A stretch of DNA of 64,000 nt from NCBI GenBank assembly GCA_964023275.1, contig OZ029916.1:44492080-44556079 (forward strand), read 5' to 3'. A program made the translations under genes and the position numbers. Below are positions 14,601-59,110 of this stretch, one piece after another (within the stretch, counting starts at the first letter, position 1; every line of letters begins with the position of its first letter). The notes beneath the pieces were generated by a model. It was given only the letters and a program-made list of their open reading frames with translations, was not told the DNA's origin and ran no database searches. The DNA comes from Norana najaformis (taxonomy: Eukaryota; Annelida; Clitellata; Crassiclitellata; Hormogastridae).

Positions 14601-14875
14601 TTAAATGAGGTACATGGATAGCAGGTTGTTTTTCCATTCTCGATAATGATGATGATAATGATGACAACGATCATTTTATGACGACGATAACGAACCAGTT
14701 ATTTTTTAGTCATGATTACTGTCCTACCGCCACTTTGAAAAACTGGCATGTCGGATCCAGTAGCTGCGTCCATTTCCAGGTCTCTGGCTATAGCAGCTGC
14801 TGCTGCACTTGATCTGGCATGAATGCCGTTCAACCGACAAACTGCGACGAAGAGGAGGACGAATGTGAAACGCAT
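8646..14875 (-). CDS. Trypsin-like secreted serine protease, copy B (five exons, 308 aa)
   Basis: The coding exons are 14,875-14,728, 14,159-13,976, 12,740-12,442, 9,830-9,543 and 8,653-8,646. Their lengths sum to 927 nt with matching phases (1, 2, 1, 1). The product is an S1-family zymogen that hydrolyses peptide bonds outside the cell: signal peptide residues 1-20, Ala-rich propeptide to Arg63, activation site R63/IVGG, and catalytic triad His109, Asp166, Ser259. Asp253 sits at the trypsin specificity position (chymotrypsin 189), which predicts Lys/Arg preference. However, residues 280-281 are Met-Glu where trypsin has Trp215-Gly216, so the pocket entrance is unusual. Cys53 of the propeptide can pair with Cys186, as in chymotrypsinogen, so the propeptide may stay attached after cleavage. 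The start at 14,875 is chosen because MRF is conserved in copies B, C and D; an in-frame ATG three codons upstream (14,884) is the alternative. All splice sites are GT-AG. Confidence 0.9.
9543..9830 (-). CDS. Copy B exon 4: catalytic Ser
   Basis: 288 nt from a TTGCAACAG acceptor to a GCAA/GTAAGT donor. It encodes residues 211-306, with Cys233-Cys245, the specificity Asp253, GDSGGP with Ser259, Cys265, Cys285 and the C-terminal helix ending in W300. The 220-loop is two residues shorter than in bovine trypsin. Confidence 0.92.
9831..12441 (-). repeat. Intron 3 of copy B: AAGTAC arrays around a LINE fragment
   Basis: A short (TA)n run lies at about 9,945-9,962. Two tracts of imperfect AAGTAC hexamers lie at about 10,440-10,645 and about 12,075-12,195. 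Between them is an old LINE 3' fragment on the minus strand (about 11,000-11,420), the same one seen in copies A and C. No further exon is evident. Confidence 0.6.
12442..12740 (-). CDS. Copy B exon 3: catalytic Asp
   Basis: 299 nt from an ACTTTTACAG acceptor to a CGAA/GTAAGT donor, phase 2 in and phase 1 out. It carries Asp166 in YDIALLKL, Cys186 (partner of the propeptide Cys) and the GWG turn. Copies A, C and D have a Cys in the loop before FLGK; copy B has none there. Confidence 0.92.
13480..13620 (+). repeat. SINE-like repeat, family 2
   Basis: About 130 bp starting GGATCTTGAACTGGACCCGA and ending GAAATCTCGGGGTTATGATT. Sister copies lie at 30,418-30,550 and 47,672-47,795 (plus), and at 46,985-47,120 and 51,073-51,200 (minus). 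The GTAGAAATCTCG...ATTACGATTACG end resembles the 3' tail of the window's CR1/L2 elements, so a LINE-tailed SINE is likely. Confidence 0.6.
13976..14159 (-). CDS. Copy B exon 2: zymogen cleavage site and catalytic His
   Basis: 184 nt from a TTGTTGCAG acceptor to a CCT/GTGAGT donor. It encodes the propeptide Cys53, VNGR/IVGG at residues 60-67, CGGSLVSD, and TAAHC with His109. Cys94-Cys110 form the usual 42-58 bridge. An additional Cys90 has no obvious partner in this copy. Confidence 0.93.
14728..14875 (-). CDS. Copy B exon 1: signal peptide and Ala-rich propeptide
   Basis: The frame opens with MRF and a hydrophobic core [10 protein letters not shown], has a likely signal cleavage after IHA (residue 20), then a short poly-Ala stretch. 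The donor GCG/GTAGGA aligns with GACG/GTAGGA in copy C and GACT/GTATGA in copy D. Phase 1 joins it to exon 2. Confidence 0.85.
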
Positions 14876-16999: not shown

Positions 17000-19900
17000 G
17001 GACCGAGTACTCACCAGTATAAGCGAGCTCCCAGAGACAAAGAGTCTGAAGGACATATAATGGAAGACATCGACGCAGGAAATGGTGTCTCAATAAAAAC
17101 ACCGGGAGGAAGGCAACGGGAAACCACATCTCTAAAACTTCCCGAGTACACGGACAGTGGCAAAACAAACGATGCAAGACAATAACGTGAACGATTCGAT
17201 CCAGCCATTTACGGAGAGAGTCGCTTTCGGCATGAGAGGAAACAGGGCCTCTTTGGCCGTCATCCAACGAAATCCTTGAAAAAAAAGCAATGCTCAGAAT
17301 AGGGACGTGGAATGTGAGAACAATGCTGAGACCGGGAAAGTTAGACACTTTCATCAGATAGATTAAAAGAGCAGGTTTGGATATACTGGGACTGCCGGAG
17401 GTTAGATATAAGGATGGCCATAAGTTAATGAGTGAGGGAACTAGAGTGTTATACACCGAGGGCCATGCAGGTCAAAATGGAGTGGCCATCCTACTAGAGG
17501 AAGGGGTTGCCCAGTGTGTCATCAGATTAGAAAACTTTAAAGAGACTGTTGATGGTGGTAAGAAAAGCCTACCCAGTTGAATTGTGGTGACAAGGGAATA
17601 TGCCCACCACGGCCCATAAAGAGGAAGAAGTACATAATATACATATTTGAGGTGAAAGAAGAAAAATTAGAGAACATCAAAGGAAGAGAATATACAGTGA
17701 CTATGGGAGACTGGAAGGCTTCAGTTGGAGAAGCGGCTGAAGGAAGCTATATCGGAAAGTATGGACTGGGAAAAATAAATGACAGAGGACAAAAACTCGT
17801 GGATTTTTGTAGGCGAAAAAAGTTAATTTTAACAAATACCCGGTTCCAACAAGAAAAAATACAAAGGTATACTTAGAAGGCCCTGGGGATGCTACCCGAT
17901 ATCAACTGGACTACATCAAGGTTAAACAAAGATATAGAAACAACGTAAAGAAATCCAGACCTGTACCAGGGGGGGGGCAGATACGGATCACAACTTGGTA
18001 GCCATGACGGTCCATCTACGATTAAAATTCATCAAGAAGAAGAGGAAACAAGTAAAAATATTGGATCAGGAAAAATTAATGCCTAGGAGTGAAGAAATAT
18101 TGCAAAAGATCGAGGAACACATAGTAGAAAGAAGTCTAGCCACGACAGAAGAATGATGGTGAGGGCTGAAGGATGTTATTACTAAGGAAACATTAGAAAC
18201 GGTGGGATATCTAAAGGGCCAATCTCCTCGAAAGCCATGGATTACGATGGAAATGCTTCAGGATATGGAAGAGAGACGAAAATGGAAAGGTCAGAGTACG
18301 GAGAATGCTAAAAGGAATATAGGAGACTAAATAGCAAACTATGAAGAACAACAGAGAAGGCCAGAGAGAAATGGTGGGAAGAACAACGTAGAGATTTGGA
18401 AGAATTACAAGAAAAGGAAGATAAGATCAAGCTTACAGAAAAGTTAAGAAGATGACAAAAGTGTCGACCAGAGGAAGTGGAATAGCGGTAGAAGACAAGA
18501 ATTCTATGATCCTACAAGACCCCAATGAGTCAGAAGACGGTTGAAGGAATACATAGAGGACTTCTACCAGAGCAAGAATAGACCTGCACATATTAATCAG
18601 CACTCACCCCCGGAGAAGGGGGAGAAGTAGGACCAGATGTGCTGAAAGCTTAGGTACTGGCAGCCATCAGCGAAATGGAAAAAAACAAGGCGGGTGAAAT
18701 TGACAACAGTCTGGCAGAGATAGTACTACTCAAAAATCTGGGAGAAAAAGCATTGGCTGAACTGGTAAGGCTGTTCCAGGTCATATACAATAATGGAGTA
18801 TGGTCGGAGGACTTTTTACAGTCCATCATCATCCCCATGAAAGAAAAGAATAATGCAACGGCTAGTTAGGATCATCGAACAATTAGCCTACTAGCATATG
18901 CCACCTAAATTATACTAAAGATCATCACAAAAAAGTAATAGCCAAGACAGAAGGAACAGAGAATTTGGGAGAAGATCAGTTCGGATTCAAGAATGGTAGA
19001 GGTGCTAGAGATGCCACTGGAGCACTAAATGTGTTGACAGATAGAAGCCTTGAGCACGATCAAGACGTTTATGTATGTTTTGTGGACTACGAGAAGGCAT
19101 TTGACAGAGTAGATTGGAGAAAAACTGATGCGTGCACTCAGGAAATTTGGAATTGACTGGAAAGATAGAATACTCATTGAAGATCTGTATATAGGCCAGA
19201 AGGTTAGAATAAGAATAAAAGGCTAAGAGTCAGAAACGGGAATTTTTGGATGGAGTAAGACAAGGCTGCCCGCTATCACCACTGCCATTTAACATATATC
19301 TTGAAGAACTTGTACGAGAGGCGCTATAAAATAGATGGACGAGGGAGTAAAAGTAGGAGGGGAAGACTGGTGAAGGCGCTGAGATTTGCAGACGACCAGG
19401 CAATGCTGGCAAATAGATAAGAAGGTCTACAAAAGATGATGGATCGCCTGAACCTAATTTTGACAGAATAAGATATGAAAATATGTATTAAAAAGACAAA
19501 TGTTATGAAGATAAGCAGAAAAGAAGAAACAACAGTAAGAGTAATAGTAAATGATAAAGGGTTCGAATTGATCAGGCAGTTCTGCTACTTAGGAAGTAGG
19601 CTATTATTACAACATATGCAAAATGTCACAATAAAATAAAAAAGGATAGCAATGGGAAAAGGCGCTTTTATGAAGAATTAATGAGAGAAGAACTGAACAG
19701 GAACCTAAAGAAGAGAATGGTCAAAACATTGATATGGGGCGTGGTCTTGTATGAATCGGAAACACGGACCATCGGAAAGAAGAACTCAGAAGACTGGAGG
19801 CTTTTGAGTTATGGGTATGGCGCAGGATGGAGAAGGTTAGCTGGACAGAACACAAAACATACGAAGAGGTGTTTCAACAGGTGGAAGAGAAAAGATCTCT

Positions 19901-20140
19901 TATGGCTACAGTAAGTATGAGACAGAGGAAATGGATTGGGCACATACTAAGAGGTGATTCTCTTCTGATAAATATCATAGAGGGAAGAGTGGAAAGAAAG
20001 AAAAGAAAAGGAAGACCTAGACAAATGGTACTAGACTGGATGATGGAGGACGGATACGGTAAACTGAAGGAGGTGGCCCAAAGACGTTCGAACCTGCCCA
20101 GGGGCAGAGAACTTGAAGAAGACTCTTGAGCAAATAATTA
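17000..20140 (+). mobile_element. Decayed APE-type non-LTR retrotransposon (LINE), near full length
   Basis: The parts appear in order on the plus strand. At 17,291-17,540 is the start of an apurinic-type endonuclease (GTWNVRTM, then LDILGLPEVR). At 18,965-19,156 is reverse transcriptase motif A (FVDYEKAFDRVDW). Motif B (RQGCPLSP) follows at about 19,262 and motif C (RFADDQAM, both catalytic Asp kept) at about 19,380. The C-terminal part at 19,827-20,129 has WIGHILRG and GRPRQMVLDW. Stops and frameshifts interrupt all domains, so it cannot encode an active protein. The motif set fits the group often annotated as 'craniofacial development protein 2-like' endonuclease/reverse transcriptase elements; clade assignment (RTE/BovB-like or a neighbour) is a guess. 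It lies between protease copies B and C next to fragment E. Confidence 0.88.
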
Positions 20141-41775: not shown

Positions 41776-42404
41776 AGGAAGCAACACATGGCTCGTCACA
41801 TTTCAAATTTACAAGAATGTTATGTTTCCCGTAGAAATTCTTATAATAAATTTATTATCAGCAAAATATGAAAGCCAGTCTAAATGAATTATCTTTAAAT
41901 TGGCAACTTGCATTATTCTTACACTATATGAGATCAAATCCGCCAGAGCCACATTGTCGGCTTAGTTTCGGTGCCAGGTCAGAATCAGCTGGTCAGGCCG
42001 GAGGAGATAGGGTGTTGATTAAGTTGGAAAGCAATTATGATGACAACGGTGGTCATAGGATGGTCCAGGATCGGGTGCAGGGCAGGACAGTTTGAAATGT
42101 TTAGAGTTAGGGCCTGTGGAGAAGAGCTCAGATTTGCATGTTAAAATAGAGGATTTGCGATCAGACGGAGGTTTTTGGGACGTCGTTCCAAAGATTTGCG
42201 CATCACTTTTCGACAATAAGAGCCCGGAGCCAAGATAAAGGTATGAGGAAAAGCGATCTGAGCGGTTGCTTAGTGAGTAGCTTAAAATGTAAAAAGGTTG
42301 AAAAAGGTTAAAAAAATATGAGGTTGAAGGGCGTTTTCGAGATGTTAACTGCCTGTTGGAAATGCTCAATATATCATTCGGCTGCTTCACTGATGGTATG
42401 TATG

Positions 42405-43590
42405 TATGTATCACTCCATCCTATTGGAGTGTTTGGAAATTTCCTTTGGCATCATTGGTTCTGCCCTCACCTGGTTTCAGTCATTCCTGTCAGACCGCCT
42501 TCAGTCTGTTGTTTTTGGGCCCTCACGGCCCCTCTGGTTCCCCGTCTCCTTTGGTCTCCCCAGGGTTCCGTCCTAGCTCCTCTCCTCTATATTTTATATA
42601 CCTCTGATCTAGCTCGGTCCCTCCCACTGAGTCTTGCCGTCCTTCAGGATGCAGAGGACACACAGGCTTATGCCCATGGTCCGGCGGAGGCGGCCCCTGC
42701 CCTTGTCCAGAGAATTCTCGATGCCACCTCTGTCCTTGACCTATGGATGTCCTCCAATCGCCTCCGTTTGAACTGTAATAAGACCCAGTTCATCTGGCTT
42801 GGTGGCTGCTTGCAGCTCGCCAAGATTGGTCTCTCCTCCTTACGCCAGAGATTTCCGGATATCTACTTCTCTACTACGGTCCGGGATCTCGGGGTTGTGT
42901 TGGATCAGGAGCTTACCCTGTCTGCTCATGTTAACAGCGTCTCTCGCTCTTGTTTTTACCATCTTCGTCAGCTCCACACCATTCGCCGTACTCTTTCCTT
43001 CCACGCTATCGCCACTCTCGTCCCTACCCTCATTTGCACCAGGGTTGACTTTGGTAACGCGATCTTTACCGGTCTATCGCTAGCCAACACTGCAAAGCTG
43101 CAATCTGTGCCTAACTCTGCTGCTCGTCTCATTGGGGGCATTCCAAAATATGGCCACACGTCGTCTTATATTCGTGACATTCTTCACTGGCTCCCCGTCC
43201 AGCAGCGTGTCCACTTTAAGATCCTCTCCCTCATGCGCAATTGTGTTCTTGTCTCTGCTCCCCTCTACCTCACTGACTTCTGCACTTTGGTCTCCTCGTT
43301 GCCGGGCCGTAGCACCCTTCGCTCGGCCACTCAGGATCTCCTGTTTGTCCCTCGAATGCGCACCGCTACAGCCCAGTCCAGAAGCTTCACCTACGTTGGT
43401 TCCACTTGCTGGAATCGTCTCCCTCAAGAATTGCGACTTGAGCTCCTTTCTCTCCCCTCTCAGTGTTCCGCAGGCGCCTGAAGACTGTACTGTTCAACAG
43501 TGATTATACTTTTTCGTGTCGGAAGCACCTCTCTTGAGTTTATCCTCTAAGAGACGCTTTATAAATCTCAAATTACAATTACAATTTGAA
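42405..43590 (+). mobile_element. CR1/L2-like LINE, 5'-truncated, with open RT frame but damaged catalytic site
   Basis: An open frame ending at 43,481 encodes the second half of a reverse transcriptase: PQGSVLAPLLYILYTSDL (motif B), motif C at about 42,650, the thumb region (RLNCNKTQFIWLG), and the conserved C-terminus (WLPVQQRVHFKIL, then WNRLPQELR). Motif C reads DAEDTQ where active elements have FADDTQ, so the first catalytic Asp is Glu and the preceding aromatic residue is Asp. The 3' tail follows: CTCTTGAGTTTATCCTC, an AGACGCTTTATAAAT end and (ATTACA)n. Sequence upstream of about 42,560 is in a shifted frame. A young but dead copy is likely. Confidence 0.88.
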
Positions 43591-43803
43591 ATGGTGTTAA
43601 CTAAATAGCATATTCAGAGGAGCCCGACTGTGGCCGAGCAGAGCAACTGAAATATTTGGAGGTTCAGCCTGGCTACCATGAAGATATTTGTGCCTATCCT
43701 TAACTGAACTCAATTGTTTCATAACTGCAGACGATCAAATGTGTTTGAAAACAAAGTCTAGGCCTAAATGTGTTCACAAAACGTCACGTTTCAGGCGAGT
43801 TCT

Positions 43804-44419
43804 TTAGGAATCTGGAATGCAAATCAAGGTCTCCTGTGCCGCAGGAATAGTGACGTTATCACAGTCCGTGACAAATGTTACAGAGGTCGTGACCCGGCCT
43901 TCTTTCGTCGCTTCCGACAGTCGCATATCCGCCAAAAATATGTTCGAATCGCGGATCAGGTCAACGCCTGACCCGACTACCGGAACCACTTCCGGTTTGC
44001 CGATGCTTCTGTGCAGGATTCTGTTTCCTGTCAGAGTCATTTCTCGGCCACCTGGTGACAAAAACGTCCGAGAGTGATGTGATTGTTCCGCACTTCCGGC
44101 ATCCACCGGAAGTAGATTTCCGCTTCCGACCGGAAGCATCTCTACCCGCTGACCGGACACTGGATGAGTATTCCTACTGCCACCTCCAGTACGGGAGTGG
44201 CACGTCTCGGCGGCAAACAGAGGCTCGTCTTCTAGGTTGAATTCGATGAGCTGGTGATATGGACAGAGTAAAGAGTTCGTTGATGGTGGGGCCACTGATG
44301 AGGTCTCCTGAGGACCTACGTCCTTGAAGTCGAGGAGATATGTGCCTGGCAGGTCATCTACATCCATCCGGTGATCCATCGCTCGGTCTTTAGCACGGCG
44401 CTTCAGTCTTCGTCCGTAT
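43804..44419 (-). CDS. Receptor exon 6: cytoplasmic tail
   Basis: 616 nt after a GTCGTTGTAG acceptor, ending in TAA. The tail starts with a strongly basic juxtamembrane segment ([12 protein letters not shown]), followed by acidic [13 protein letters not shown] and [15 protein letters not shown], and then Ser/Thr/Gly-rich sequence. YHQL fits the YxxL/Yxx-hydrophobic motif used for endocytosis or SH2 docking. No enzyme domain is visible. Confidence 0.75.
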
Positions 44420-44706
44420 CTACAACGACAATCAGTGATTACGACAACTACTACACTTATTCTGGTTATCTACACTCAGATTATCATCATCGTTATGACA
44501 ACAAATCCGCTCATTTTGATTATAAATACTCAGACTATTGTGATTACAACAACAACCAAATCCATTATGATTGTATAATTATGTCAACGACTCTGTCTTT
44601 ATGATTACGACCTCTGAGAATAATTAGTTACAACAATCAGACCTATTTTAAAATAAAACGAAACCCATTTTGATTGCATCTATTATTATTATTGTTGTTG
44701 TTGTTG

Positions 44707-44763
<57 letters not shown>

Positions 44764-47700
44764 GATGGGCATTTTTATCTTCACGCCCTTACCGCCTAGG
44801 CTGTCACGGGCTCGTTCAACACGCCAATACGAAAGAACATCGGTGGCGCAGAGTTAGTGAAAGGCTTACTCAAGTTCCTGTACAATAACCGTCTCAGGAG
44901 AGACTCGAAACCGTACTCCGAACATAACAAGGGGAGAACTCTAACAAATCGGTTACCGTGCCCCACACAATCTATAAATGGATTATTATTATAATTAGGA
45001 CAACGACTATGCCCGATTTGAATATACAACTACAACAACTTCCTTAGCTGAAGGCATCCACATGCCTCACTATATCTCTATATCTCATGAAGTCATCAAG
45101 ATATACCCAGGTAAATGATCCGCGGTGGTTGTGCCAGTAAGAACTGTTATCGATAAATAAGCTATTACCGTCCTTTGCTTTACCTTACATTACTTCTGTT
45201 AATAAAACAGACAGACCTTCGAGCCCACAGCAGCAGACCGAAGAGGATGACGACACCGAAGGCGACTCCAGATGCCACTCCCAGACCGATCGTGAGCAGA
45301 ATTCCTAGAGGAAAGAAAACAATGTTACCTCGGCATTGGAGGTTCAAATCCCGGTCTTGTATTCTATGCTGCCAAATGAATAGTCTGCCTCACCCTGCTT
45401 TGTTTCATAGGTTATGGGTAAAGGAAAACAACTGTGATTGCGAGTCTTTCCATATTTAACTAATTAAAGGAATTTTGCTCATTTTTAGCAGTCAGTGCCG
45501 AATCTTAGCAAAGCCTTAGTGTTGCCGGGGTATGGATCGGTATTCAAAGTGCAGAGGACAGATAAATCAAAGTCTTTCCTTTTGCGAACGATACGATCGG
45601 TGTACATCCAACCTCGGTGGCCGATGGAGTGTTATTGAGAGGCGAATGTCTTTCAATTTGCATAATTAAGTTTACATGTATCTTTGATTTGTAGGTCTTG
45701 TTTCTACCACATTAAGGCATTTCGTCACGTCAGACATTCTCTGACTAATGACATGGCTAAAACAGTGGCATGTGCACTCGTTGGTTCTCGATTAGACGAT
45801 GCAAATGCAGTGTTATACGGTTTATCCTCTTTTAATGTAAAAAGCTCCAGAGGGTTCAAAACTCTCTTTCTAGGGTTGTTACATGTTCTTCTTTATCAAA
45901 TGCATTAGACCGCCTTCGTGAACTATACTGGCTTCCTGTCGAGTGGCGTATTAAAGTTTAGAATTGCATGCTTGACTTTTAAGGCTCAGAACACTGGCCT
46001 TCCTTCATATCTTATTACATTGCTGACTACATATCGCCCTCCCAGATTCTTGCGTTCTTCTGATACTGGTTTGTTGCAAGGACCTAGGTTCAGGACAATT
46101 GTAGGATCACGTGCCTTTACCTGCTGTGCTCCTCGCATTTGGAATCGTCTACCGCAATAGGCCCGACTTGCAAACTCGCTATCATCCTTTAAATCACTTC
46201 TTAAGACTGACTACTTCACTCTGGCTTTTGCATGATTCCATCTTGGCTCCTAGCGACCATACATCCGCGCCTCAGATTCAGATTTACTGACATTGCGCGC
46301 GTTGCATTTATTAAGCGCCACTATCTAGAAACTAAACATCAATCTCTGGCGCTGAGCAATTTTGATTGTAGGACTTGCTCAAGGTTCCTATGCAGTAACC
46401 GTCGGAAGGGAGTATCGAACCCGTACTCTCCGCATTACAAGCCGAACCCTTTAACCAATCGGCTACTGTTCCCCATATCTTATTATGAGGGACCTCCGTC
46501 CTATCTGTATTTTACCTCTTTTCCCCAAAGCTTTGTATTCTGTGTCTTATGGATAAATATGTACATACTTTGTTTGTCTACTTTATAACAATAGTCTTAT
46601 TTTGGATAGGTCTTGTGGTCTGTGACAGCCTTATGAGACTTACCATAGGGAACAATGAGACCACTGCGATCGTATGATCTTTTTCCTGGAGAAAAGAAAA
46701 GATAACGCATGATTCTACAGATGCTGCTGCTGCTGATGATGATAACGACTTTGGTGATAACGACGACTGTGGCGACGACATTAATGATGAAAAGTGAAGG
46801 TACTATATCATCATCTGACATCGCCTAGACTTGGGCGCCGTTTCCGAGAGATTATAAGAAGGTGTCATACAAGTATTAAGCTACATACATTCATACATTC
46901 ATAAATACATACATACATACATATATACATATATATACATACATACAAACATACATACGTACATACAAACGCACGTACATATATCGTATTCGTAATTGTA
47001 ATCCCAAGATTTCTACAGCGCCCAACGAAAGCCAAGTCACGAGAACCAACCTATTCACAGGCGCTCAGTCAAAACAAAATCGCTAGGCAAAAAGGTTTGG
47101 TTCCAGATCAAGATCCAAAAGTCAGGCAGAGAGACAGCGTGGCAGCTACGGTGGGTGATGTTAGGAATTGGAGCGGAAAGGGAGACAAGAGGAAGAAGAA
47201 GACAAACCCCTCGTGCAGTTGTTGAGTTCTCCTTTCCATCGAGAGTCGACGCAGATGAGGAAGAAAGTCTCTCCCGTTGAATTGCATCGAACGCTCATCG
47301 ACTCCCTCTGGCGAGTGATCTGAGCATTAGCGATATGTGCAATGTCCGCACATCCGAACACTTACAAACAGACAAATCATATACATACCATACATAGTCT
47401 ATGAAGTCTATATATCTATAACTGATCGTCTAAACTTATGCATATATATATGTATATGTGTAAACAGAAAGCGCTTTTATTGTAAAATATACATTATGCA
47501 CACATGGAGGCCAATATCTGTATTTAATAGCTTACATATGTTCATATATCATACAAATACATGCATGTGTGTATGTATGTGTGTAAGATGTATGCATGTA
47601 TGTATGCACACCATACATATGTGTATGATATATGTATGTATAGATGCATGTAAGTGTGTATGATGTATATCTTGGATCTTGACCTGGAACCGAACACTTT

Positions 47701-48675
47701 TGTCTATCGATTTTGTTTTGACTGAGCGCCTGCGAATAAGCAGGTCCCCGTGACGTGGCTTTCTTTGTGCGCTGCAGAAATCTCGGGATTACGATATCTC
47801 TAGGCCCAGCGCTCTATCCATCCGGTTACCGTTCCAACCAATTACGTAAGGCATCAAGGTGCAGGGGCTTGTTGACGATAACAGTGTAAATTTAATGAGC
47901 AGCAAACAAAAGCTAAGTAAAGGTAGATCAGCTTATTCACAGTTGTAATACAAAATCAAGTCCGCAAGACAAGTTTGCTGGGTCAGCTTCAGTGCTAGAT
48001 CAAAATCCTTCCGTGGGAGAAGCCATTGTGCTTATATTCATGACACGGCGCTATTTTTAATTATAACAATTGATATTACTAGTATGGCCTGAATTCGTTT
48101 GCTTTTGGTTTCCATAGTAACGTGTCGTTTAGAAGCAATGCCCTCTAGAGGCAGAGACTCTATTATGGAGGAATGTTGAATAAGTTATTAATTAGCGCAA
48201 CGAAATAATTAGAGATGGTGAGGATAAAGGAAGTGAACTTCCTTCTTGTAGGCGTCTATAGTAAGTTTCAACATTCTCTTAATGTCTGTAGGCAAATTTA
48301 TTTTAGTCCCTTAGACAGCTACGCGCTCACATCACGTTTGAGAGGTCCTTGAAACGGGCGCTATACAAATGCTTGGAAAATAATAATTTAATAATAATTT
48401 AATAGTAATTTTTTTATTTATTGTACTTTATACGCAAGTAGATCTGAATCCGAGGCGCGGGTGGAGTGTATGCAAACTTGTCCAAAGTAGGACGTTCGCT
48501 CAGTAGGCATCGAACACATAATCGTTGGATTACAGACACGGCGTGCTACCGAATGGAGACCATCATGCCGCAAATGAAAAGGGGAATGCGTTTCCCCAGT
48601 TATTACTCTGTCTGTCCACAGGTCTTTCACTCAGTGCTTCCCAACAGGGTGTGATCTGTAATTATTATTATTAAC

Positions 48676-48710
<35 letters not shown>

Positions 48711-48730
48711 TGTTATTATTATTATTATTA

Positions 48731-48761
<31 letters not shown>

Positions 48762-49646
48762 ATTAAATGTAAAATATTTAAAGAAATTTATACTTTTTAA
48801 ATATTTTTTATGAAAACATGCGGCGTTCATCAAATTATTTTAGCACTTCTATCCCAATCCAATTAAATATTAAACCGCTGTATGATAGTTTTCGACTTAG
48901 GAAGAGTTTCCTCATACACGCTCACAACTAATTAAAGTGAAATTTATGACTGCTAATTTACGGGTAATTAGTGTACTATTCGGGGCAGACTGAATATGCT
49001 TTAACACTAGACACTTAATGTCTTCGAGCGTCCAAGCTACGCTAGTGTCTGCACTGAGCAGACATTGCCTTTTGGTGTACGGTGAAGAACAGTGATGTGG
49101 TACCTTGGTAACGGATGATGAATCCTCCCATGGCCATGTGGTCTTTGAAGGACCGGCCGTTAACCGGCTGGACGAACAGCTGAAGGGAGTGGCCACCGGA
49201 AGTGTAGACTCTTCGCTCACGGTACCCGTTCGCACATACCGGAAGCACGGTCGACTGGTTCCGGTCAAGGACGACGATCCCCCAGCCGCACGCTGCGCCG
49301 TCCTGACCCCCGGAGAAGCTGTACAGCGTGAGGTTTATGCGACGCCCTGGGTGGCCCTGGACCACCCACGGGCAGGACATAGTGCCGACCACCGACTCCT
49401 CTGACGTCAGGCTGGCCAGGAAGCCGGACTCGCTGTAGACCGAGTGACCACCGCCGCCGCAACTGACCAGTCCATTGGCCGCTGGACTGTGCACTGACCA
49501 CAAGCACGGTATCGTATTCATCAACAGTGTCATCGTCGTCGTCATCATTATCATCACTGTTGTTGTCGTCTTCGCAATCATTATCCTCTTTATTAATCAT
49601 AGTGATTGTCAAAGTTGTTTCCGTCATCTGTAGTATCTACGTCGTT

Positions 49647-49698
<52 letters not shown>

Positions 49699-52161
49699 CC
49701 ACCATCACCATCAACACCATCATCAACAATAAGAAGAAGAAGAACAACAATTGTAATCGTAAACTCGAAACTGCTAAAGCGCTACTCAAAAGCTAAGCGC
49801 AGGGCACCATCTTATTTACGAGCGCTGCTGCGTCAAGTCAGAGGGGTGGCATGAAGACCAAAAATCCTGTTGCCAGGAGACCAGAGACGGAAGAAAACAG
49901 AGGAGCTGTTGCGGCTGGTTGTGTTTAGGTTTACAGATATAGGAAAGAGGCCGATTGAATGCATCAGGGTAACAACAACAAAGACAAGGCCGAGAAAGAT
50001 AAGGCGTTAAACTTCGCCACTGCCACACACGGGCGGTGCCAGTCCGAAGCCTGGATAAAGGAGGAGAGCGACGGCAAGCATCTCCGTTATTACCCATCGT
50101 CGTTGAACAGCAACTACACACATTAAGGCGTAACAGACAGAAAACCACACAGTATCAAACGAAGACACCCCGAACGCATGTCAGGGCGTACCCTTAATGC
50201 AGAAGAAGCTGGCCTCTAGGTAGGGCATGAGCTCCTTCGGACACGGATGGATGTTGTGGAGCGCAGCGTCCGGGATCATCAGGTGGCAGAGCCTCCTGCC
50301 GGAGCACTTGCGGTCCAGGTGAGGGAGGACATCGGCCGAACAGCCGACGTTGCCGTGGTCCTCCTGCATGCACCGTCCGAAGCGGATTCGACCATAGCGA
50401 GCGGACTGCATCAGGATGACTTCGTCTGCCGCACAGCTGGCGTTGAAGTTCTCCCACTGACAGTACTCTCGCAGCTCACCTGGATGTAATGCAATCGTAA
50501 TCGTAAACTCGAAATTCTAAAGCGCTACTTAAAAGCTAGGCGCAGGGCACTGGCTTATTTACGAGCATTGCGTCAAGTCCGTGGGGTTGTCCAAAGATGC
50601 CCTGTCAAGAACCAAGTCCGGTTGTCAGGAGACCAGAGAGAGGAGGGAGGGGAGGCTTGGGTGGTTGTGTTTAGTAAAGTAAAGAATCCCATATCCCACA
50701 AGTGAGACGTAGGGGAGGCGCTCATTTCCTTGTCTTTAAGCTTTTGAGCCGGCAATGGACGAATCCCAAGGTCCTAGATATGGGGCCAGTGCGTCGCAGA
50801 ACTTGACGTTTACTTCCCAGCTTACACCGGCACCAAAGTACACTGCTTGGTGACAGAGGCACGGTGTGCACAAACAACTTGCCCAGGGTCGTTGCACGAA
50901 GTCGAACCCGCAACTGAATGACCATTGACCAAACGCGTTACCGAATGATTAAAGTGCTGCACACTTGGAGTTCTCCCACTGACGGTACTTACGCCGCTCA
51001 CCTGGACGTAATGTAATGTAATACAATCGGGTATTTATTCGATGCTGAATTTTCTTTTGTATTAAATTGCTTATATCGTAATTGTAAACTCGATATTTCT
51101 ACAGCGCCCAGCTAGAACCAGCTTGTCCACAGATGCTCAGTCAAAACAAATTCGATATGCAGAAAGGGTTAAAATTCTGTTCCTGGTTAAAATCCAAGTA
51201 TCAGGCTGCGATGGTGTGTGGTATTTGGAATTGGTGTGGTAAGATAGATGAAGGGAAGAGCAGGAATCGGAATCGGATTTGTAGAAGAGGAGTGTTTCAG
51301 ATGGGTTAGCTACATCGATTGATCCTTTGCATCCGATACTGGCATTGAACAAATATATTTATACATGAGGAGATGAGTAGAGAAGTAGATAAATATCTAT
51401 GTCGGAAATATCAATACCGAAGTCAATGTTCATCCAATACTTCAATCACACGCAGTCTCTGCATGGCTCAGCGCATATCTGCCAATTGCACCGGTCGGTG
51501 TTAACGGCCGGTGTTAACGGCCGGTGTTAACGGTCGGTGTTAACGGTCGGTGTTAACGGTCGGTGTTAACGGTCGGTGTTAACGGTCAGTGTTACCGGCC
51601 GAGGTTGTTGTGTGCATGGGGCGACTGATGTTTGGAGACACAATGAAGCTCCGATGAATTCGGTTTGACTTGAAGAAAGGCAGGACAGACGAAGCAGAAG
51701 AGAGTCAATACGACGACAGCGGACGACAGAAAAACCGAATGATCTCAGTAGATGATGAAGATTGTCAAGTTATTCGTACATACATATATACATACATATA
51801 TACATACATACATACATTATATACATACATACGTGCAAACATACATACATAAATTCAAACACACATACACATGCATACATACATTATATACATACATACA
51901 TACAAACATACATACATAAATTCAAACACACACATACATACATACATGCATACATACATACATACATACAAACACATTCATTCATACATACATACATACA
52001 TACATACGTACATACTAACATACATTCATTCATTCATACATACATACATACATACATTCATATACACATACAAGCATGTATAGCACAGTTGCAGTGTATT
52101 TTCTTTTATTAGCTTGCACTTTATAAATCTTCTCATGATATTTATACAAACATATAAGTGC

Positions 52162-52227
<66 letters not shown>

Positions 52228-55200
52228 CTGCCCTTGTCTTCGGTACAGCTGCACCGAGCACGAAGCCATGAATGTATATATATATATATATATAATATAT
52301 ATATAATATATATATATATACATTCATGGCTTCGTGCTCGGTGCAGCTGTACCGAAGACAAGGGCAGTACTGACAGTACCAAAGACGAGGATAATACACA
52401 CCGTACCAGACATGAAGACGGTACTGAACGTACCAGAGACGAGGACAGTACGGACACTACCACGAACTGTACCGGATCCTGGGATGGAAGAGTCAAGGGT
52501 TTCATTGTCTTGAAACCAACACCTAATTGGTTCTAGTAGCAATGACGAGAAGCATCTCGGAAGAATACTCTCGGTTGGTGGTGCTGCGGCTGCTGAGGCA
52601 GGCTAGAGAACACGCTCACATCACGCGATCAAAGACTGAAGTGCATGAATAAGTAATGGATTTACTTACTTATTTTTCTCGTACGATGTCATTAGACGGG
52701 TGCCAGAAATTTGGATTATATTCGTCTGGTAAGATGAAAAGGAAGCTGAAGGACGTACGGACGGACGGACGGACGGACGGACGGACGGACGGACGGACGG
52801 ACGGACGGACGGACGGACGGACGGACGGACGGACGGACGGACGGACGGACGGACGGACGGACGGACGGACGGACGGACGGACGGACGGACGGACGGACGG
52901 ACGGACGGACGGACGGACGGACGGACGGACGGACGGACGGACGGACGGACGGACGGACGGACGGACGGACGGACGGACGGACGGACGGACGGACGGACGG
53001 ACGGACGGACAGGAAGAATGAAAGACTTAGACGGAGAAAGATTAGGATGAGCATGGATTTTGTTGGTGGATGTGTCGATGGATAGATGAGTAGGTGGAGG
53101 GGTGGGTGGTTAGATGGATGGATTGATGGATGGAAGGATGGATGGAGAGATGGAAGAACGGACGGATGGATGCATGAGTGAACGAAGGAAGGATGGACGT
53201 ATGGATGGAGGGATGGACGGAAGGGCAGATTGACGTCTATGTTTCTCTCTATGTTTCTCCTAGCGTCTGTCTGTACCTGTCTGTCTGTGTCTGTGGATGC
53301 TCCTTGCTGTTTAGCGGGGCATTCATAAATTAGCGCGATATAAGTATCTGATTAATCAAAATTATAATAATGGATGGGTTGTTCATTGAATGGATGGATG
53401 GATTGGTGAATGGATGAAGGATGGACGGATGGATGGACGCAAAACTGGGATCATCAGGGATTATTGTGAGCAAATACAACATGAAGAACAACATGTTTTT
53501 GCAAAGGTTGCATCTCGCCCTTGGGGCTCTCTAACTGTTGTGACAAACAAACTTATATCACCAAAGCATATGCACATGAAAACAGCAATTACCCTCATCT
53601 GTATGATCTAACCGCTGTTTTACCGATATTCGTCCTTCTCTCTGTGTTTCTCCTTGTGTCTGTCTGTATCTGTCTGTCTGTGTCTCTTTGTGTATGTCTG
53701 TGTCTCGTTGTGTACGTCTGTGCCTCTTTGTATCTGTCTGTTTCGGTGTATGTCTGTGTCTATGTCTGTCTGTGTCTATGTCTATGTCTGTCTGTGTCTA
53801 TGTCTGTCTTTGTCTATGTCTGTCTATCTCTGTCTGTAACATGCATGCAGACAGCAACAGACAAATAGGCAAACAGACAAACATAGACGAACAGACACAT
53901 AGTAACAGAGACACAGACACAGCAGAACACAGACAAACATCTCAGTAAAACACAAACACACACACAATAATACGAAAACAGACACAGCCAGATAGACATA
54001 CACACAGAAACGCAGACAGAGAGACGCAAAGAGAGTCACTCATGCCTTCAAAGCCCACAAAATTGCACTTGATTCCGACGCCGATTCAATCAGACCTTCC
54101 CTCCAACTCTTCCAAGTCCTCCTCGCTCTATACTCCCCTCCTCCTACTCTTCCTATTCCTTCTCTTCCTTCTCCTTCTCTTCCTTCTCCTTCTCTTCCTC
54201 TTCCTCCTCCTCCTCCTCTTCCTCCTTCTACTCTTCCTTCTTCTCTTCGTCCTCCTGCTCTTCCTCCTTCTACTCTTGCTCCTACTCTTGCTCCTACTCT
54301 TGCTCCTACTCTTGCTCCTACTCTTGCTCCTACTCTTGCTCCTCCTCTTGCTCCGCCTCTTCTTCCTCCCCTCCTCCTCCTCTTCCACCTGCTTCTCCTC
54401 TTTCTTCTGCTCTTCTTCTTCCTCCTTCTCTTCTTCCTACTCCTACTTTTCTTACTCCTACTCTTCCTCCTCTTCCTCCTCCTCCTCCTACTCTTCTTCC
54501 AACTCCTCTTCCTCCTCTTCTCCCTCCTCTTCCTCGTACTCCTCTTTTTCCTCCTCTTCCTCCTCCTCTTCCTCCTACTCCTCTTATTTGTCCTCTTCTT
54601 CCTCCTCCTCTTCCTCCTCCTCCTGTTCCTCCTCCTTTTCCTCCTCCTTTTCCTCCTCCTCTCCCTCCTCTTCTTCCTCCTACTCCTCTTCCTCCTACTC
54701 CTCTTCTCCTTCAGGCCAACTTCAAGTCATCTATGCCAACCAGACGTCAAAATATGCGTCCACAAGCAGTTATTGAGTTAGTGAAAGAAGGGAGGAAGAC
54801 CGGTGGATGATTTGTCGCGATATGGAAAGAGGAGTTAAAGTGGTTTGATCGGTTCAAGAGGGGATGGTCGGATCAGGATGGGTTGGTCGGATCAGGATGG
54901 ATTGGTGGGATCAGGATGGATTGGTCGGGTCAGGATGGGTTGGTGGGATCAGGATGGACTGGTCGAATCAGGATGGGTTGTTCGTATCAGAATGGGTTGG
55001 TTGGATCAGGATGGGTTGGTCGGAGCAGGATGGATTGGTCGGATCAGGATGGATTTGTCGTATTAGGATGGGTTGGTGGGATCAGGATGGGTTGGTGGGA
55101 TCAGGATGGATTGCTCGGATCAAGAAGGGTTGGTGGGATCAGGTAATATGAAGATGGATTGTTTAAATCAAGAGGGATTGGTGACGTAAAAATGAGACTG

Positions 55201-57699
55201 TCAGTTCGGTTGCGTGGTCGCGCTAAATTACAAGTTAATGTTGCATAGGGAAAGGTAGTATTACCAATCTGCAGTGGACAAGGAAAAGCTTTTCTTTCAA
55301 CAACGATCGGTTTTAGCTGAAGCGGAAGCAGAGGGGATTCAGGGATGGTTCACTGCGTCCCACAAACGAAAATCGATCTCGATTTTCAGGGCTAGGCTTA
55401 GCTCGCTCTCTAAGTCGTCGATTTAAGAGGCCCCAGCCTCAGTGTCGATTACCCCGATAGAGGCGGAACTCATCCAGGATCACGTGCCCCTTCCATTCGA
55501 CCGGAAACTGATAGGGCTTCGGAAAGGGTCCTTGTCCATTCGTAGGGCATTGAGAAATGACACTGCACTCGTGGGGTCACACTCTTAAAAGCAATGTCTG
55601 GTGGAAGGATGGGTAGGGCGATCAGAGATATAAATTGTCTGATATATGACCCATACTGGACAGGTTGTGTGGCCACAGAGTCTGGCCCGTAAATTTGTAT
55701 TTATATGCTTTTGAGCTACTTCAAAGATTATTGTGTCGATACATACTGTACATACATATATACATACATACATACATGCACACATATATACATACACATA
55801 CATACATACATACATGCATACATATATACAACATACATGCATACATGCATACATACATACACACATACATACATACGTACGTACGTACATACATACATAC
55901 ATATATTGATGCATGCATATGTATATACAGACAGACAGGCAGACAGACATACATACATATATACATACATACATATACATGCATAGATACATACACACAT
56001 ACATACATACATACATTGATGCATACATACGTATATACAGACAGACAGGCAGACAGACATACATACATACATACGTATGCATGGATGCATCGATAAATAA
56101 ACATGAATCGAAGGTGAATGAAGAACTTGCTCAACGTTCCAACACAGTAACCGCCTCAAGGGAGGCTCGAACCCCTACTCTTTTCGTTACAAGCCCAGCC
56201 CTCTAACCAGTCGGCTACCGTGCCTCAGTGACAGAGAATGTCTTTGCCTTTGAGCTTTGAGTCAGGGTTTCGAAGCCCAAAATGCGTCATGTGTGACTGA
56301 CATTTCGTTGTTAGCAAGTTTATTAGTTAGTTACCTGACATTTGATATAGCGCCTTTTCAGTACCTCACAAAAGCGCTGATTAAGACTAGAAGTTTGTCA
56401 ACAAGGCACGGATAACTGTAAGTCACAACTGGCGGGCCCACACACACACACACGTAGAACCCAGCCAACGCATTAATATCCAGAGTTGACAGATGAACGA
56501 TGTTCAGAGTTCCTAGAACAAGTCGCGTCGATGGTGTAGAGCGACGACAGGCGATAGGGTCCACAGTACACCACCAATAACACCAATAACACCAATAACA
56601 CCAATAACACCAATAACACCACCGCCCAGCAGTCCCTCATTAGCGGTAGAAGTCGAAGCATCCGGATATCCCTCGAACCGCCGTCTGTCAGTCGGTAGGT
56701 CGAAGGCCCCCCCGATGATTGTCGGTCTAGGGTCCTCCAAAGACCCTCGTCGGTCCTCCTCCGCCGAGTCCATTACCCACCGGATGAAGACGGCGTAGAT
56801 TTAAGGCTCGACGGAACACCAGGGAGGCTATCCCTCCATATGCAGTCATGCGTAGAAATTACCGTCCAAAATGTTCGAAATCTCTGGCGGAAACCTTACC
56901 TATATACTTATGTATGTTTGTATGTATGTATTTATGGCTGCATACATGTATGTTGTTAATTATATACAGTGCTTTTTCCGATGGAACGCTTTTTTTTCGG
57001 CTAATAAAAATAATCAGGTTTTTAATAAAAGAATTGTGTTACTAAGTTATTTTAATTATGTAATATATTGCAACTTATTTTAATTCAATTTCAGTGTTCA
57101 CAACTTTACACTGTTTTCAGTGTTTATTGATTGATAAAATAATGAAATTTTAGCAAAAAATTCCATAATTGCTCAGTTCGGAATCTTTTTTCTAGAGAAA
57201 AAAGCACTGATTATAAAGCGCCTTTTTAGAACTCCACTAAGGCACTAAATACATACTGTATATACATACAAGCGTACAAATATACGTGCATACATGTATA
57301 TAATACATACATACATAATAGATAATACATACATACATACGTACAAACATACATACATACATACATACATACATACACAAATACATACATAAATACATAT
57401 ACATTTACATACATGCATACATACACAAATACATACATACATACATCAATACACACAAACATACATACATACATACATACATACAACATCCGAGTATAGT
57501 AAAATCAAACGGCTAAGCCTATATTCTGCATACATGCAAAATAATATAAATCCGCCTTACCTGCGCACAGTAATACAAACTCTACCAGGAACATAAGCAG
57601 AGTCAAAGCTGTCGACATTTTCAGCAGGCCCAGCCTCCTGCTTCTGCCCCTCTCCATCGCTGCCAATTCGTTCCTACTCCTCCTCCTCTTCGTCGTCAT
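43804..57699 (-). CDS. SUEL-CUB-sushi type I transmembrane receptor (six exons, 568 aa)
   Basis: The exons are 57,699-57,561, 50,479-50,192, 49,493-49,104, 47,360-47,208, 45,304-45,184 and 44,419-43,804. They total 1,707 nt and all junction phases agree (1,1,1,1,2). The domain order is signal peptide to residue 46, SUEL galactose-binding lectin 53-140, CUB 154-272, sushi/CCP 276-322, transmembrane 325-350, basic stop-transfer, and a cytoplasmic tail to 568. SUEL domains bind galactose- or rhamnose-type sugars; CUB and sushi domains bind proteins, often at cell surfaces. The four extracellular exons are symmetrical or compatible at phase 1, the usual layout of exon-shuffled domains. N-glycosylation motifs (NAS, NLT, NQS, NST, NCT) are spread over the ectodomain. 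A cell-surface recognition or adhesion role is inferred from architecture only. Start-site choice among three in-frame Met in exon 1 is uncertain. No polyadenylation signal was identified. Confidence 0.85.
44680..44763. repeat. (ATT)n microsatellite in receptor intron 5
   Basis: A nearly perfect ATT array with a short GTT part at its left, about 84 bp. Confidence 0.9.
44862..44971 (-). mobile_element. tRNA-derived SINE (copy 5)
   Basis: On the minus strand: GTGGGGCACGGTAACCGATT, GGTTTCGAGTCTCTCCTGAG and the start of the GGAACTTGAG body. It lies in intron 5 of the receptor gene. Confidence 0.65.
45184..45304 (-). CDS. Receptor exon 5: transmembrane helix
   Basis: 121 nt between TTTCTTTCCTCTAG and a TAAG/GTAAAG donor. 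It encodes [18 protein letters not shown] and a second hydrophobic part up to LLLW, then ARR as stop-transfer signal. Phase 1 in and phase 2 out fit the neighbouring exons exactly; an earlier GTAAGG would break the frame. Confidence 0.82.
45684..46235 (+). mobile_element. CR1/L2-like LINE remnant in receptor intron 4
   Basis: Plus-strand frames read [14 protein letters not shown], then [17 protein letters not shown] and [10 protein letters not shown], the C-terminal third of a CR1/L2 reverse transcriptase, with stops and frameshifts. It is opposite in orientation to the receptor gene. Confidence 0.72.
46313..46475 (-). mobile_element. tRNA-derived SINE (copy 6)
   Basis: On the minus strand: ATGGGGAACAGTAGCCGATT, GGGTTCGATACTCCC, then AACCTTGAGCAAGTCC and TTGCTCAGCGCCAGAGATT. 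It retains more of the body than copies 5 and 7. Confidence 0.72.
46880..47120. repeat. (ACAT)n microsatellite and SINE-like family 2 (minus)
   Basis: ACAT repeats lie at 46,885-46,980. The family-2 repeat follows on the minus strand at 46,985-47,120 (GTAATCCCAAGATTTCTACA to CTCAGTCAAAACAAAATCG on the plus strand). Confidence 0.65.
47208..47360 (-). CDS. Receptor exon 4: sushi/CCP domain
   Basis: 153 nt, phase 1 in and out. The peptide has four Cys spaced as in a short CCP module: [29 protein letters not shown]. The Trp lies between Cys3 and Cys4, as in the family. The acceptor (TTTGTAAG) and donor (GTTTGT) are weaker than the others. The assignment rests on phase fit and the Cys/Trp pattern. 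Confidence 0.7.
47540..47850. repeat. ATGT repeats, SINE-like family 2 (plus) and tRNA-like scrap
   Basis: ATGT/GTGT repeats lie at 47,560-47,668 and the family-2 repeat at 47,672-47,795 (GGATCTTGACCTGGAACCGA to GAAATCTCGGGATTACGA). A tRNA-like piece with GCGCTCTATCCATCCGGTTA follows to about 47,850. All are in receptor intron 3. Confidence 0.55.
47851..48765. repeat. Receptor intron 3: LINE tail and (ATT)n array
   Basis: A LINE-type tail (GAGAGGTCCTTGAAACGGGC, then GCTATACAAATGC) lies at 48,338-48,375. A degenerate tRNA-like stretch is at about 48,480-48,550, and an ATT/ATA array at 48,661-48,763. No exon is evident. Confidence 0.55.
49104..49493 (-). CDS. Receptor exon 3: CUB domain
   Basis: 390 nt from a GTGGTCAG acceptor to a CAAG/GTACCA donor, phase 1 in and out. 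It encodes the CUB fold: [44 protein letters not shown] and GGFIIRYQ. The four Cys give the usual two bridges. The calcium-site Asp pattern cannot be confirmed by eye. Confidence 0.85.
49639..49960. repeat. (ATC)n array and SINE-like family 3 (minus)
   Basis: ATC repeats lie at 49,642-49,725. At 49,750-49,910 is a repeat with AATCGTAAACTCGAAA and AGCGCAGGGCACCATCTTA. Its sister copy lies at 50,503-50,650, on the other side of the SUEL exon. The TAATCGTAA start on this strand is the reversed LINE-style tail. Confidence 0.6.
50192..50479 (-). CDS. Receptor exon 2: SUEL galactose-binding lectin domain
   Basis: 288 nt from an ACATCCAG acceptor to an AAGG/GTACGC donor, phase 1 in and out. It encodes a complete SUEL (Gal_Lectin) domain: [37 protein letters not shown] and [17 protein letters not shown]. 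The family motifs usually written (A)NYGR and DPC...KYL appear as ARYGR and HPC...PYL. Eight Cys are present. Replacement of Asn by Arg in the YGR motif and Asp by His in DPC could alter sugar binding. Confidence 0.9.
50500..51210. repeat. Receptor intron 1, right end: SINE-like families 2 and 3
   Basis: Family 3 on the minus strand lies at 50,503-50,650. A tRNA-like stretch (GTCGTTGCACGAAGTCGAAC) lies at about 50,880-50,950. Family 2 on the minus strand lies at 51,073-51,200. No exon is evident. Confidence 0.55.
51491..51602. repeat. 13-bp minisatellite containing GTTAAC
   Basis: About eight copies of GGTGTTAACGGTC, alternating with GGTGTTAACGGCC at the left end. Every unit contains the palindrome GTTAAC. 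Confidence 0.9.
51775..52080. repeat. (ACAT)n microsatellite
   Basis: About 300 bp of imperfect ACAT/ATAC repeats with a few CATTCATTC and AAATTCAAACAC interruptions, themselves repeated. Confidence 0.9.
52167..52224. repeat. (TA)n array
   Basis: Uninterrupted TA dinucleotides, about 58 bp, ending just before the palindrome. Confidence 0.9.
52226..52369. repeat. Palindrome with perfect 49-bp arms
   Basis: The left arm 52,226-52,274 (TACTGCCCTTG...CATGAATG) is the exact reverse complement of the right arm 52,321-52,369. The 46-bp centre is nearly self-complementary TA repeat. The right arm continues into a decayed repeat with GACGAGGACAGTAC-like units (to about 52,480), which suggests the left arm is an inverted copy of its first unit. 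Confidence 0.95.
52757..53010. repeat. Perfect (ACGG)n microsatellite, about 63 copies
   Basis: 254 bp of uninterrupted ACGG with no mismatch seen. Both strands are open in this tract (Thr-Asp-Gly-Arg repeats; Ser-Val-Arg-Pro repeats), which is a consequence of the repeat rather than evidence for a gene. Confidence 0.97.
53085..54040. repeat. GGAT, TCTG and CAGA simple-repeat blocks
   Basis: Imperfect GGAT repeats lie at 53,095-53,225 and 53,370-53,445. TCTG/TGTC repeats at 53,640-53,840 turn into their complement CAGA/ACAG at 53,845-54,030, forming a loose inverted arrangement. No exon is visible. Confidence 0.8.
54112..54715. repeat. Polypyrimidine CTC/CTT tract of about 600 bp
   Basis: Almost pure C/T on the plus strand, with a sub-repeat of about 16-18 bp (TACTCTTGCTCC) at 54,270-54,345. 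The long Leu/Ser-rich open frame over it is a composition artefact. Confidence 0.93.
54846..55145. repeat. 19-bp minisatellite
   Basis: About 15 copies of GGTTGGTCGGATCAGGATG with substitutions. Because 19 is not a multiple of three, all three plus frames read the same peptide pattern (WVGRIRM-like), shifted. Confidence 0.92.
55146..55738. other. Unassigned part of receptor intron 1
   Basis: No repeat family, exon or RNA gene was recognised in this stretch. Confidence 0.4.
55739..56095. repeat. (ACAT)n microsatellite with internal duplication
   Basis: Imperfect ACAT repeats. The interruption GTATATACAGACAGACAGGC occurs twice (about 55,920 and 56,032), so a block of about 112 bp is duplicated in tandem. 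Confidence 0.88.
56128..56227 (-). mobile_element. tRNA-derived SINE (copy 7), best-preserved tRNA head
   Basis: On the minus strand: GAGGCACGGTAGCCGACTGG, then TTAGAGGGCTGGGCTTGTAA, and GGGGTTCGAGCCTCC as B-box. The body ends shortly after ACGTTGAGCAAG. Confidence 0.75.
56513..56773 (-). other. 86-codon open frame over a 9-bp minisatellite
   Basis: The frame starts [10 protein letters not shown] and contains five Val-Ile-Gly units encoded by the (ACCAATAAC)n array at 56,571-56,622. It lies on the receptor strand in intron 1. No domain, splice-site or homology support; it is listed because the non-repeat part is GC-richer than its surroundings. Confidence 0.2.
57190..57490. repeat. LINE-like tail (minus) adjoining an (ACAT)n array
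   Basis: AAGCGCCTTTTTAGAACTCC at 57,216-57,235 resembles the reversed LINE 3' stem, and ACAT repeats begin directly after it (57,249-57,485). Confidence 0.65.
57561..57699 (-). CDS. Receptor exon 1: signal peptide
   Basis: The open frame [10 protein letters not shown]... ends in a hydrophobic core [18 protein letters not shown] at a GCAG/GTAAGG donor, phase 1. Initiation at Met28 would give a classical short signal peptide; the upstream Met codons would add a basic N-terminal extension. It is joined to the SUEL exon across a 7.1-kb intron. Confidence 0.7.
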
Positions 57700-59110
57700 C
57701 CTCCACGGGACCGTTAACCTATACGTCTTTCACGACGAGGGCGTACCCCTCCGAATTAAGATCGACCGTTCTGTCTCCATCCGCTACGAAATATAGGTCG
57801 CCTGCGTACGTGACGAAACTTCCGACTGGCGCCTCTGGTGGCGAGACCGGGCGAACGTCGTTTCGATCTTGTGCGTCAGTTACTGACGGTTCGATGAAGA
57901 TAGGCCTCGGATCAAAGCTGTACGTTGAAAAGCAGAAACGGCGCGTGCGTAATGACCTACATTACAACCAATAAGAAGTAATTAGGTCGCGTACCACTAT
58001 TTTGAATTTAAGTAAAGTAGTAATTCTGCTTTATTTGCACGGTAATCCGACTATCTAATATGACGTAACCAAAACAAGTGTAATTACTTCTATAGCGCCG
58101 TTATGATAATGTAAAATACGTTAATCGATACTCGCTTCAAGTTAAAATTCTTAATCCGCTGGAGAAATTCGTTCGAAATTCGATTTGTACACAGGAACAA
58201 AATGTAGAATAGCTCTTTCGTAAAATATCTGATTTCCTGACCAGGTTTTCGAATATTTTATACATCTGAGCTACTGCAGGTAATTCTCTCTCCCACGAAG
58301 AAAATCTGGGAGAAAGGCAGAGAAGTAAGTAGGCTACATAACAAATTAATCGTAAAAATGACGGATTACAGATGTAATTCAGTCCCTCATCACTTAAAAA
58401 ATAGCTGTACTAAAGTTTTTATTGGGACGTGCAGCCGAAGTTAACAGTGACGCCAGTGACGTAAAATTTGCGTCATCAGGACGTCATCGTGGGACGCTTA
58501 TGACACAGAAAAGATGCCGAGCACAATGATGACGTAAGACAGACGTAAATCTCTAACCGCGATCTCCATTCATCAGTAATCCGATGTGACACGAAGAACT
58601 AAGAGAGTCTTGCAGGCAGGAAGTGAGCCTGAACCCAGCGCTGACGCCTAGCGTCAAATTTTGTGCACACAAGCGAATAAGACACAGCAATTGTCTCCAA
58701 CAGTCCGTCTTTCTCTCTATTTATCTTCTATCCCTCCCGCGAATTGCTCTACTGTCCAGCTCTCTCCGTTTACATAAATAGCCCTGCGCCCCTCCTAGTC
58801 CACTTCCTCTCTTGCGAGTCCGCCCACCAGCCGTCTGGGAGTCCTCAGGGAGTACACCCCAGGACTCTGACAGTACCCTTCCCCGTTCTCGGTCGACAAA
58901 CGAGCTACTGACGGTTATAGACTGGGAGGTTTGGCCGCCAGCGTAAGTAAGCTCAAGCCGGTAAATAATAAATTCTGTCGACATATCCAATAGGCCTAAT
59001 TACCGTCGAGAGGAGGAACAGAAACGGAGAAGCGCTGGATAATAGAGATCTCCCCGGCTTATGTCGTAAGCCCTCGGCATAAATCATATCCCTGGCCGAC
59101 GATTCTAAAT
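57700..59110. other. 5' flank of the receptor gene
   Basis: A moderately GC-rich stretch with CpGs just upstream of exon 1, a plausible promoter area. No TATA box stands out. An 89-codon minus-strand frame at 58,721-58,990 has no recognisable domain. Confidence 0.35.

Follow-up and report, generated by a model that had tools for sequence, protein, structure and literature searches.

Exon organization of the predicted gene

The stretch of DNA analysed here, called the window, comprises 64,000 nt of the Norana najaformis genome (GCA_964023275.1, OZ029916.1, 44,492,080-44,556,079, forward strand), and all positions are numbered within it. On the minus strand, from 57699 to 43804, seven exons join in frame to encode 571 amino acids (572 codons including the stop codon), and the joined frame has no premature stop codon (Table 1). 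The exons are open and carry AG and GT at their intron-facing borders, and those for the signal peptide, the SUEL domain, the CUB-like domain, a four-cysteine (4-Cys) module, the transmembrane (TM) helix and the tail are all found. As a predicted model, it is convincing and looks like a usual animal gene, encoding a cell-surface protein that crosses the membrane once. A preliminary description of this locus had counted six exons and exactly 569 codons, missing a 42-nt exon that encodes a juxtamembrane linker. Without the linker exon the joins give 558 codons including the stop codon, and the figure of 569 therefore rests on other exon boundaries.

Table 1. Exons of the predicted gene, in the order of translation
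Feature	Position	Strand	Phase and support
Exon 1: start codon and signal peptide	57561..57699	-	phase 0 in, 1 out; donor rank 1/1029; hydrophobic residues ~23-50
Exon 2: SUEL domain, 8 Cys	50192..50479	-	phase 1/1; PF02140, PDB 8suf_E, latrophilin alignment
Exon 3: CUB-like domain, 4 Cys	49104..49493	-	phase 1/1; sub-threshold PF00431, Cys/aromatic pattern
Exon 4: 4-Cys module, possibly sushi/CCP	47208..47360	-	phase 1/1; codon usage
Exon 5: 14-residue juxtamembrane linker	46644..46685	-	phase 1/1; splice-site scores
Exon 6: TM helix with GxxxGxxxG	45217..45304	-	phase 1 in, 2 out; hydropathy, splice sites
Exon 7: basic stop-transfer, 205-aa cytoplasmic tail and stop codon	43804..44419	-	in-frame model; topology

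Splice sites were scored with generic tables over the region 43500-58000, which contains 883 AGs and 1029 GTs. The linker exon has the highest-ranking acceptor and the fourth-ranking donor of the region, and by the score of its splice-site pair it comes first among 1208 open candidates of 30-450 nt in phase 1 at both ends. Its score was reached in none of 60 Markov resamples of the whole region and in none of 300 resamples of the stretch that separates the 4-Cys exon from the TM exon. The acceptor of the TM exon ranks 2. The TM donor (rank 46), the tail acceptor (rank 56) and the sites of the SUEL exon (acceptor 45, donor 47; rank 20 among the 1208 candidates) are mediocre, and those of the CUB-like exon (118 and 175; rank 69) and of the 4-Cys exon (136 and 291; rank 110) are weak. 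Introns 1-5 are in phase 1; the earlier statement that the gene is assembled from phase-1 exons holds for these five, whereas intron 6, between the TM and tail exons, is in phase 2 when the TM donor with the higher score is used. An alternative TM donor at 45194, which gives phase 1 and a longer TM exon, has a lower donor score and requires a different tail acceptor, and 45217 was kept.

The GC content of the exons is 0.43-0.63 as compared with 0.42 in the introns, and the model as a whole has a third-position GC of 0.65. Codon usage was scored after training on 896 codons, taken from ten pieces of trypsin-like exons in the window and from the SUEL and CUB-like exons. That the 4-Cys exon is coding is supported by its codon score, which is higher than those of all 548 rival open candidates of 120-450 nt in phase 1 at both ends, a set that leaves out candidates overlapping any of exons 2-4. 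The TM (0.44), tail (0.11) and linker (0.11) exons have positive scores, in each case the highest of the three frames. On the other hand, the score of the signal-peptide exon is -0.33, the lowest of the three frames being its own, which counts against this exon. Intron 1, which is 7.1 kb long and rich in repeats, counts against the model, as does the single AATAAA/ATTAAA within 2.3 kb past the stop codon, found at 41856, about 1.9 kb off.

Some minor sequence elements were noticed around these exons. Copies of a short repeated element lie beside the SUEL and CUB-like exons (49750-49828, 50494-50571 and 51075-51107). The SUEL exon's beginning and acceptor region recur as a truncated copy outside the model, on the minus strand at 50965..51017; the copy is 87% identical to 50443-50495 over 53 nt and lies 522 bp from where the real exon begins. 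Intron 1 includes a perfect 64-nt inverted repeat (52226-52289 and 52306-52369) with a 16-nt spacer, which is either a foldback element or an artefact of the assembly, and a long (GGAC)n run (about 52757-53011) that was seen by eye among many simple repeats.

Whether the exons belong to one gene has to be considered, since phase agreement is weak evidence for it: the ectodomain junctions are all in phase 1, a common phase. Exons 1-2 could encode a SUEL protein and exons 3-7 a CUB-like/TM protein, two transcripts joined in the model because phase 1 is common, and the mediocre splice sites of exons 2-4 would agree with this. However, the SUEL and CUB-like exons are on the same strand with just 698 bp between them, and no Pfam domain but SUEL was found in the intronic ORF pieces, which makes the division into two transcripts quite unlikely. 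These pieces are the 54 minus-strand ORFs of at least 38 aa between 44420 and 57560, entropy-filtered and searched against Pfam at E≤1, and they contained a single SUEL and no other family. The possibility, raised in the preliminary description, that further domains are spliced in thus gained nothing from this search, although the CUB-like exon is itself among the 54 pieces yet was unreported there, so that other weak modules or exons of fewer than 38 aa could escape.

Modules of the ectodomain

After the signal peptide, the ectodomain contains 16 cysteines, distributed over the three modules as 8+4+4, with none in the linker. The first module can be assigned to SUEL on solid grounds of homology. 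The full protein matches PF02140 with 29.5 bits (E 9.7e-7) over positions 2-80 of the 80-position profile, which is 1.9 bits below the curated cut-off of 31.4, and the score in the joined ORF pieces is 25.6 bits. The closest solved chain in a PDB search is C. elegans latrophilin-like protein 1 (LAT-1; 8suf_E, E 1e-6). All eight cysteines and the YGR motif align with three latrophilin segments at 26-29% identity. The SUEL module had already been named in the preliminary description, and both searches put it above chance. Latrophilins account for nine of the ten PDB matches to the ectodomain at E≤1, all of them across the SUEL part. This predominance and the truncated duplicate of the SUEL exon 522 bp away might be taken as signs that the exons are part of a larger gene of the latrophilin or EVA-1 kind, or that they form a decaying copy. 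Such an origin is very improbable in view of the presence of only one SUEL, the lack of any other family (E≤1) in the 54 intron ORF pieces, the occurrence of only two hydrophobic segments and the freedom of the frame from premature stops.

In mouse Lat-1, binding of rhamnose and galactose requires Glu42, right after the first cysteine, and Lys120 in loop 2; the E42Q replacement shifts the Kd for rhamnose from 1.78 to 141 mM, and binding of the K120A variant was not detected (PMC2430599). Latrophilins 2 and 3 carry Glu and Lys at these key positions, whereas the present SUEL has Gln and Pro, the position equivalent to Lys120 being less certain on account of a one-residue insertion in loop 2. 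Mouse Lat-1 was absent from the alignment, and its numbering was transferred via the G-T-Y-K of LPHN2/3. Similar residue losses are seen in EVA-1 and PKD1-like 2, for which the authors favour non-carbohydrate ligands (PMC2430599). The reading of this ectodomain as a lectin is weakened because both key residues (the Glu42 and Lys120 equivalents) are replaced, and binding of rhamnose or galactose by this SUEL appears unlikely. Protein binding by such domains has a precedent in the LPHN3 SUEL domain, which docks onto teneurin-2, but a teneurin glycan sits in its pocket, so that receptor SUEL domains may also contact a glycan (PMC7195488).

A sugar-binding receptor for pattern recognition or gametes, in which the SUEL would bind glycans rich in rhamnose or galactose, with signalling through the tail, is consistent with membership of the SUEL family, with the retained YGR motif including its sugar-contacting Tyr and with the glycan touched by a receptor SUEL in the teneurin complex (PMC7195488). 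We consider it unlikely, since mouse Lat-1 lost all or almost all binding when either of the two residues changed here was replaced (PMC2430599), and since the tail contains neither an ITAM/ITIM pattern nor a kinase family. The preliminary description had proposed a recognition receptor with a lectin ectodomain; a type I receptor-like protein is retained from this proposal, while its sugar-binding part is disfavoured by the Gln and Pro at the key positions.

The second module is quite probably a CUB domain, to judge from the features of its exon. When this exon is searched alone, PF00431 is the top family with 14.3-14.4 bits (E 0.048) against a curated cut-off of 21.4, and two unrelated families score close to it (E 0.049 and 0.08). 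PF00431 is listed neither for the full-length protein (Pfam, E≤10) nor in the joined ORF pieces (E≤1). The E-value spans 24,736 families, and by arithmetic the chance for a single family named beforehand, here CUB, is about 2e-6; none of seven shuffles of the exon yielded any Pfam family. Cysteine spacings of 28, 27 and 17, a C-x-W and a GGF..Y end fit CUB. The corresponding cysteine/aromatic pattern has a single occurrence in the window; it arose in 2 of 300 local window shuffles and in none of 20000 residue shuffles, but carries little weight because it was written post hoc. In the PDB sequence search the exon gave three weak matches to SCAP and nothing else. A single-sequence AlphaFold model consists mostly of strands, with a mean pLDDT of 42.6 that is too poor for a fold test; with this poor model, Foldseek returned no match at E≤0.001, and CUB was named in none of the 50 rows listed. 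The CUB domain claimed before is favoured by the first place of PF00431 for the exon alone and fits by cysteine spacing, and it is weakened by the score below the cut-off and by the absence from the full-protein scan.

For the third module, which had been described as sushi, the chances that it is a sushi/CCP domain may be put at about even. Its exon has four cysteines spaced by 21, 10 and 11 residues, with a Trp between the third and fourth, which corresponds to a short sushi order; the cysteine/Trp pattern, also set up post hoc and of equally little weight, is fitted by 18 of 20000 residue shuffles and by 29 of 300 local window shuffles. No Pfam family, PF00084 included, matches the module at E≤10. 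Complement factor H accounts for the only two PDB matches at E≤10, with E-values of 1.7 and 4.1. A CCP profile of our own, built from 21 sushi segments of complement proteins, gives the exon 4.2 bits; scores at least as high came from 45 of 2000 free shuffles and from 173 of 2000 shuffles with Cys and Trp fixed. Without the matched factor H segment, the profile gives 4.3 bits (39 of 2000 and 141 of 2000, respectively). Other ORFs of the window outscore the 4-Cys exon, which is outside the best eight ORFs shown. The profile score was dropped as a proof of sushi, since some shuffles do as well and other ORFs do better. The sushi assignment is accordingly not established, the fitting cysteine/Trp order standing beside a profile score that is not significant.

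Membrane segment, tail and proposed role

Only two hydrophobic segments are present, at residues ~23-50 (signal peptide) and ~331-366, and hydropathy reaches 2.48 in the TM segment. This segment contains GxxxGxxxG (residues 346, 350 and 354) and is followed by a basic stretch. Five N-X-S/T sequons are in the ectodomain and one in the tail. The compact membrane receptor of the preliminary description, in which SUEL and two further modules precede a TM segment and a tail, agrees with the type I topology of the model, and its order of a TM exon followed by a single tail exon of about 200 aa is reproduced, with 205 aa in the tail.

The tail has four cysteines and a single YxxPhi motif (YHQL, residue 421), which is short and could be due to chance. 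NPxY, ITIM, ITAM, PxxP, acidic di-leucine and C-terminal PDZ motifs were not found in it by simple patterns. Pfam gave no kinase or other family for the tail at E≤10, only a chance-level match (E 3.3) across the TM/juxtamembrane stretch. Glycine-zipper motifs of the GxxxG type are associated with helix pairing, and YxxPhi motifs with coupling to adaptors and endocytosis.

On balance it is reasonably likely, the gene model included, that the seven exons encode a type I cell-surface protein acting as a protein-binding adhesion molecule or co-receptor. The predicted protein would be composed of a signal peptide, SUEL, a CUB-like module, a 4-Cys module that is possibly CCP, the 14-residue linker, the TM helix and the 205-aa tail. 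Its SUEL and CUB-like modules would bind protein ligands, either extracellular or on an adjacent cell, instead of free rhamnose or galactose. Pairing of helices would be favoured by the glycine zipper in the TM segment, and the tail, having YHQL and no kinase, ITIM or ITAM, might couple the protein to adaptors or endocytosis. Overall, it would be a co-receptor that mediates adhesion or captures ligands, much as EVA-1 or the ectodomain of latrophilin does. A more far-reaching view, which is doubtful, is that it represents a lineage-specific receptor in which a SUEL that has lost sugar binding is combined with CUB and a CCP-like module, a single-pass anchor and a novel tail into an undescribed architecture for protein recognition or adhesion.

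Related receptors and neighbouring genes

SEZ6/CSMD/NETO-type proteins are single-pass CUB receptors, with sushi modules in SEZ6 and CSMD; unlike the present protein, these families are not known to contain SUEL, and EVA-1 is not known to contain CUB or CCP. PKD1-like 2 is a large multi-TM polycystin, in contrast to the one TM helix found here. Latrophilins (ADGRL; C. elegans LAT-1) are like this protein in their N-terminal SUEL with eight cysteines (26-29% identity to three segments), but they are seven-TM adhesion GPCRs, whereas this protein has one TM helix and a signal peptide. SUEL-bearing single-pass receptors are already known, as exemplified by EVA-1 (PMC2430599). EVA-1/EVA1C, a Slit co-receptor, resembles the present protein in being single-pass with a SUEL ectodomain in which the sugar residues are replaced, although EVA-1 has two SUEL domains (PMC2430599) and this gene has one SUEL with other modules and a tail without a Pfam family. 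PKD1-like 2 is similar in that a SUEL lacking the Lys of loop 2 is placed in the ectodomain of a membrane protein (PMC2430599). In bdelloid rotifers, SUEL is reported in large multidomain membrane-associated proteins (PMC8878817), and the present protein is likewise multidomain.

The combination of SUEL, CUB and CCP may be unusual. A SUEL-CUB-sushi-TM protein was not recognised among the literature matches listed, which were open-licence articles represented mostly by titles and the starts of abstracts, and such silence is weak evidence of absence. If the model is true, a compact domain combination is added to the receptor-attached SUEL proteins. The addition would be modest because shuffling of phase-1 module exons is a common route by which animal receptors originate. 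It would also provide a further SUEL without the sugar-binding residues, in support of the idea that recognition of proteins is the main task of SUEL domains in receptors. Scanning of viral contigs with the SUEL domain confirmed no relative, and Rfam gave no match in the window at gathering thresholds.

Elsewhere in the window, tandem genes for trypsin-like serine proteases extend over 2020-40147 on the minus strand, with three IVGG-type, four middle and three GDSGGP exons by motif; Pfam Trypsin was matched by both of the fragments searched. Near 14702, 31639 and 39701 this array has signal-peptide-like exons that resemble one another by eye. Fragments resembling the reverse transcriptase of non-LTR retrotransposons, also recognised by eye, are located on the plus strand at about 17362-20126 and 43000-43534.
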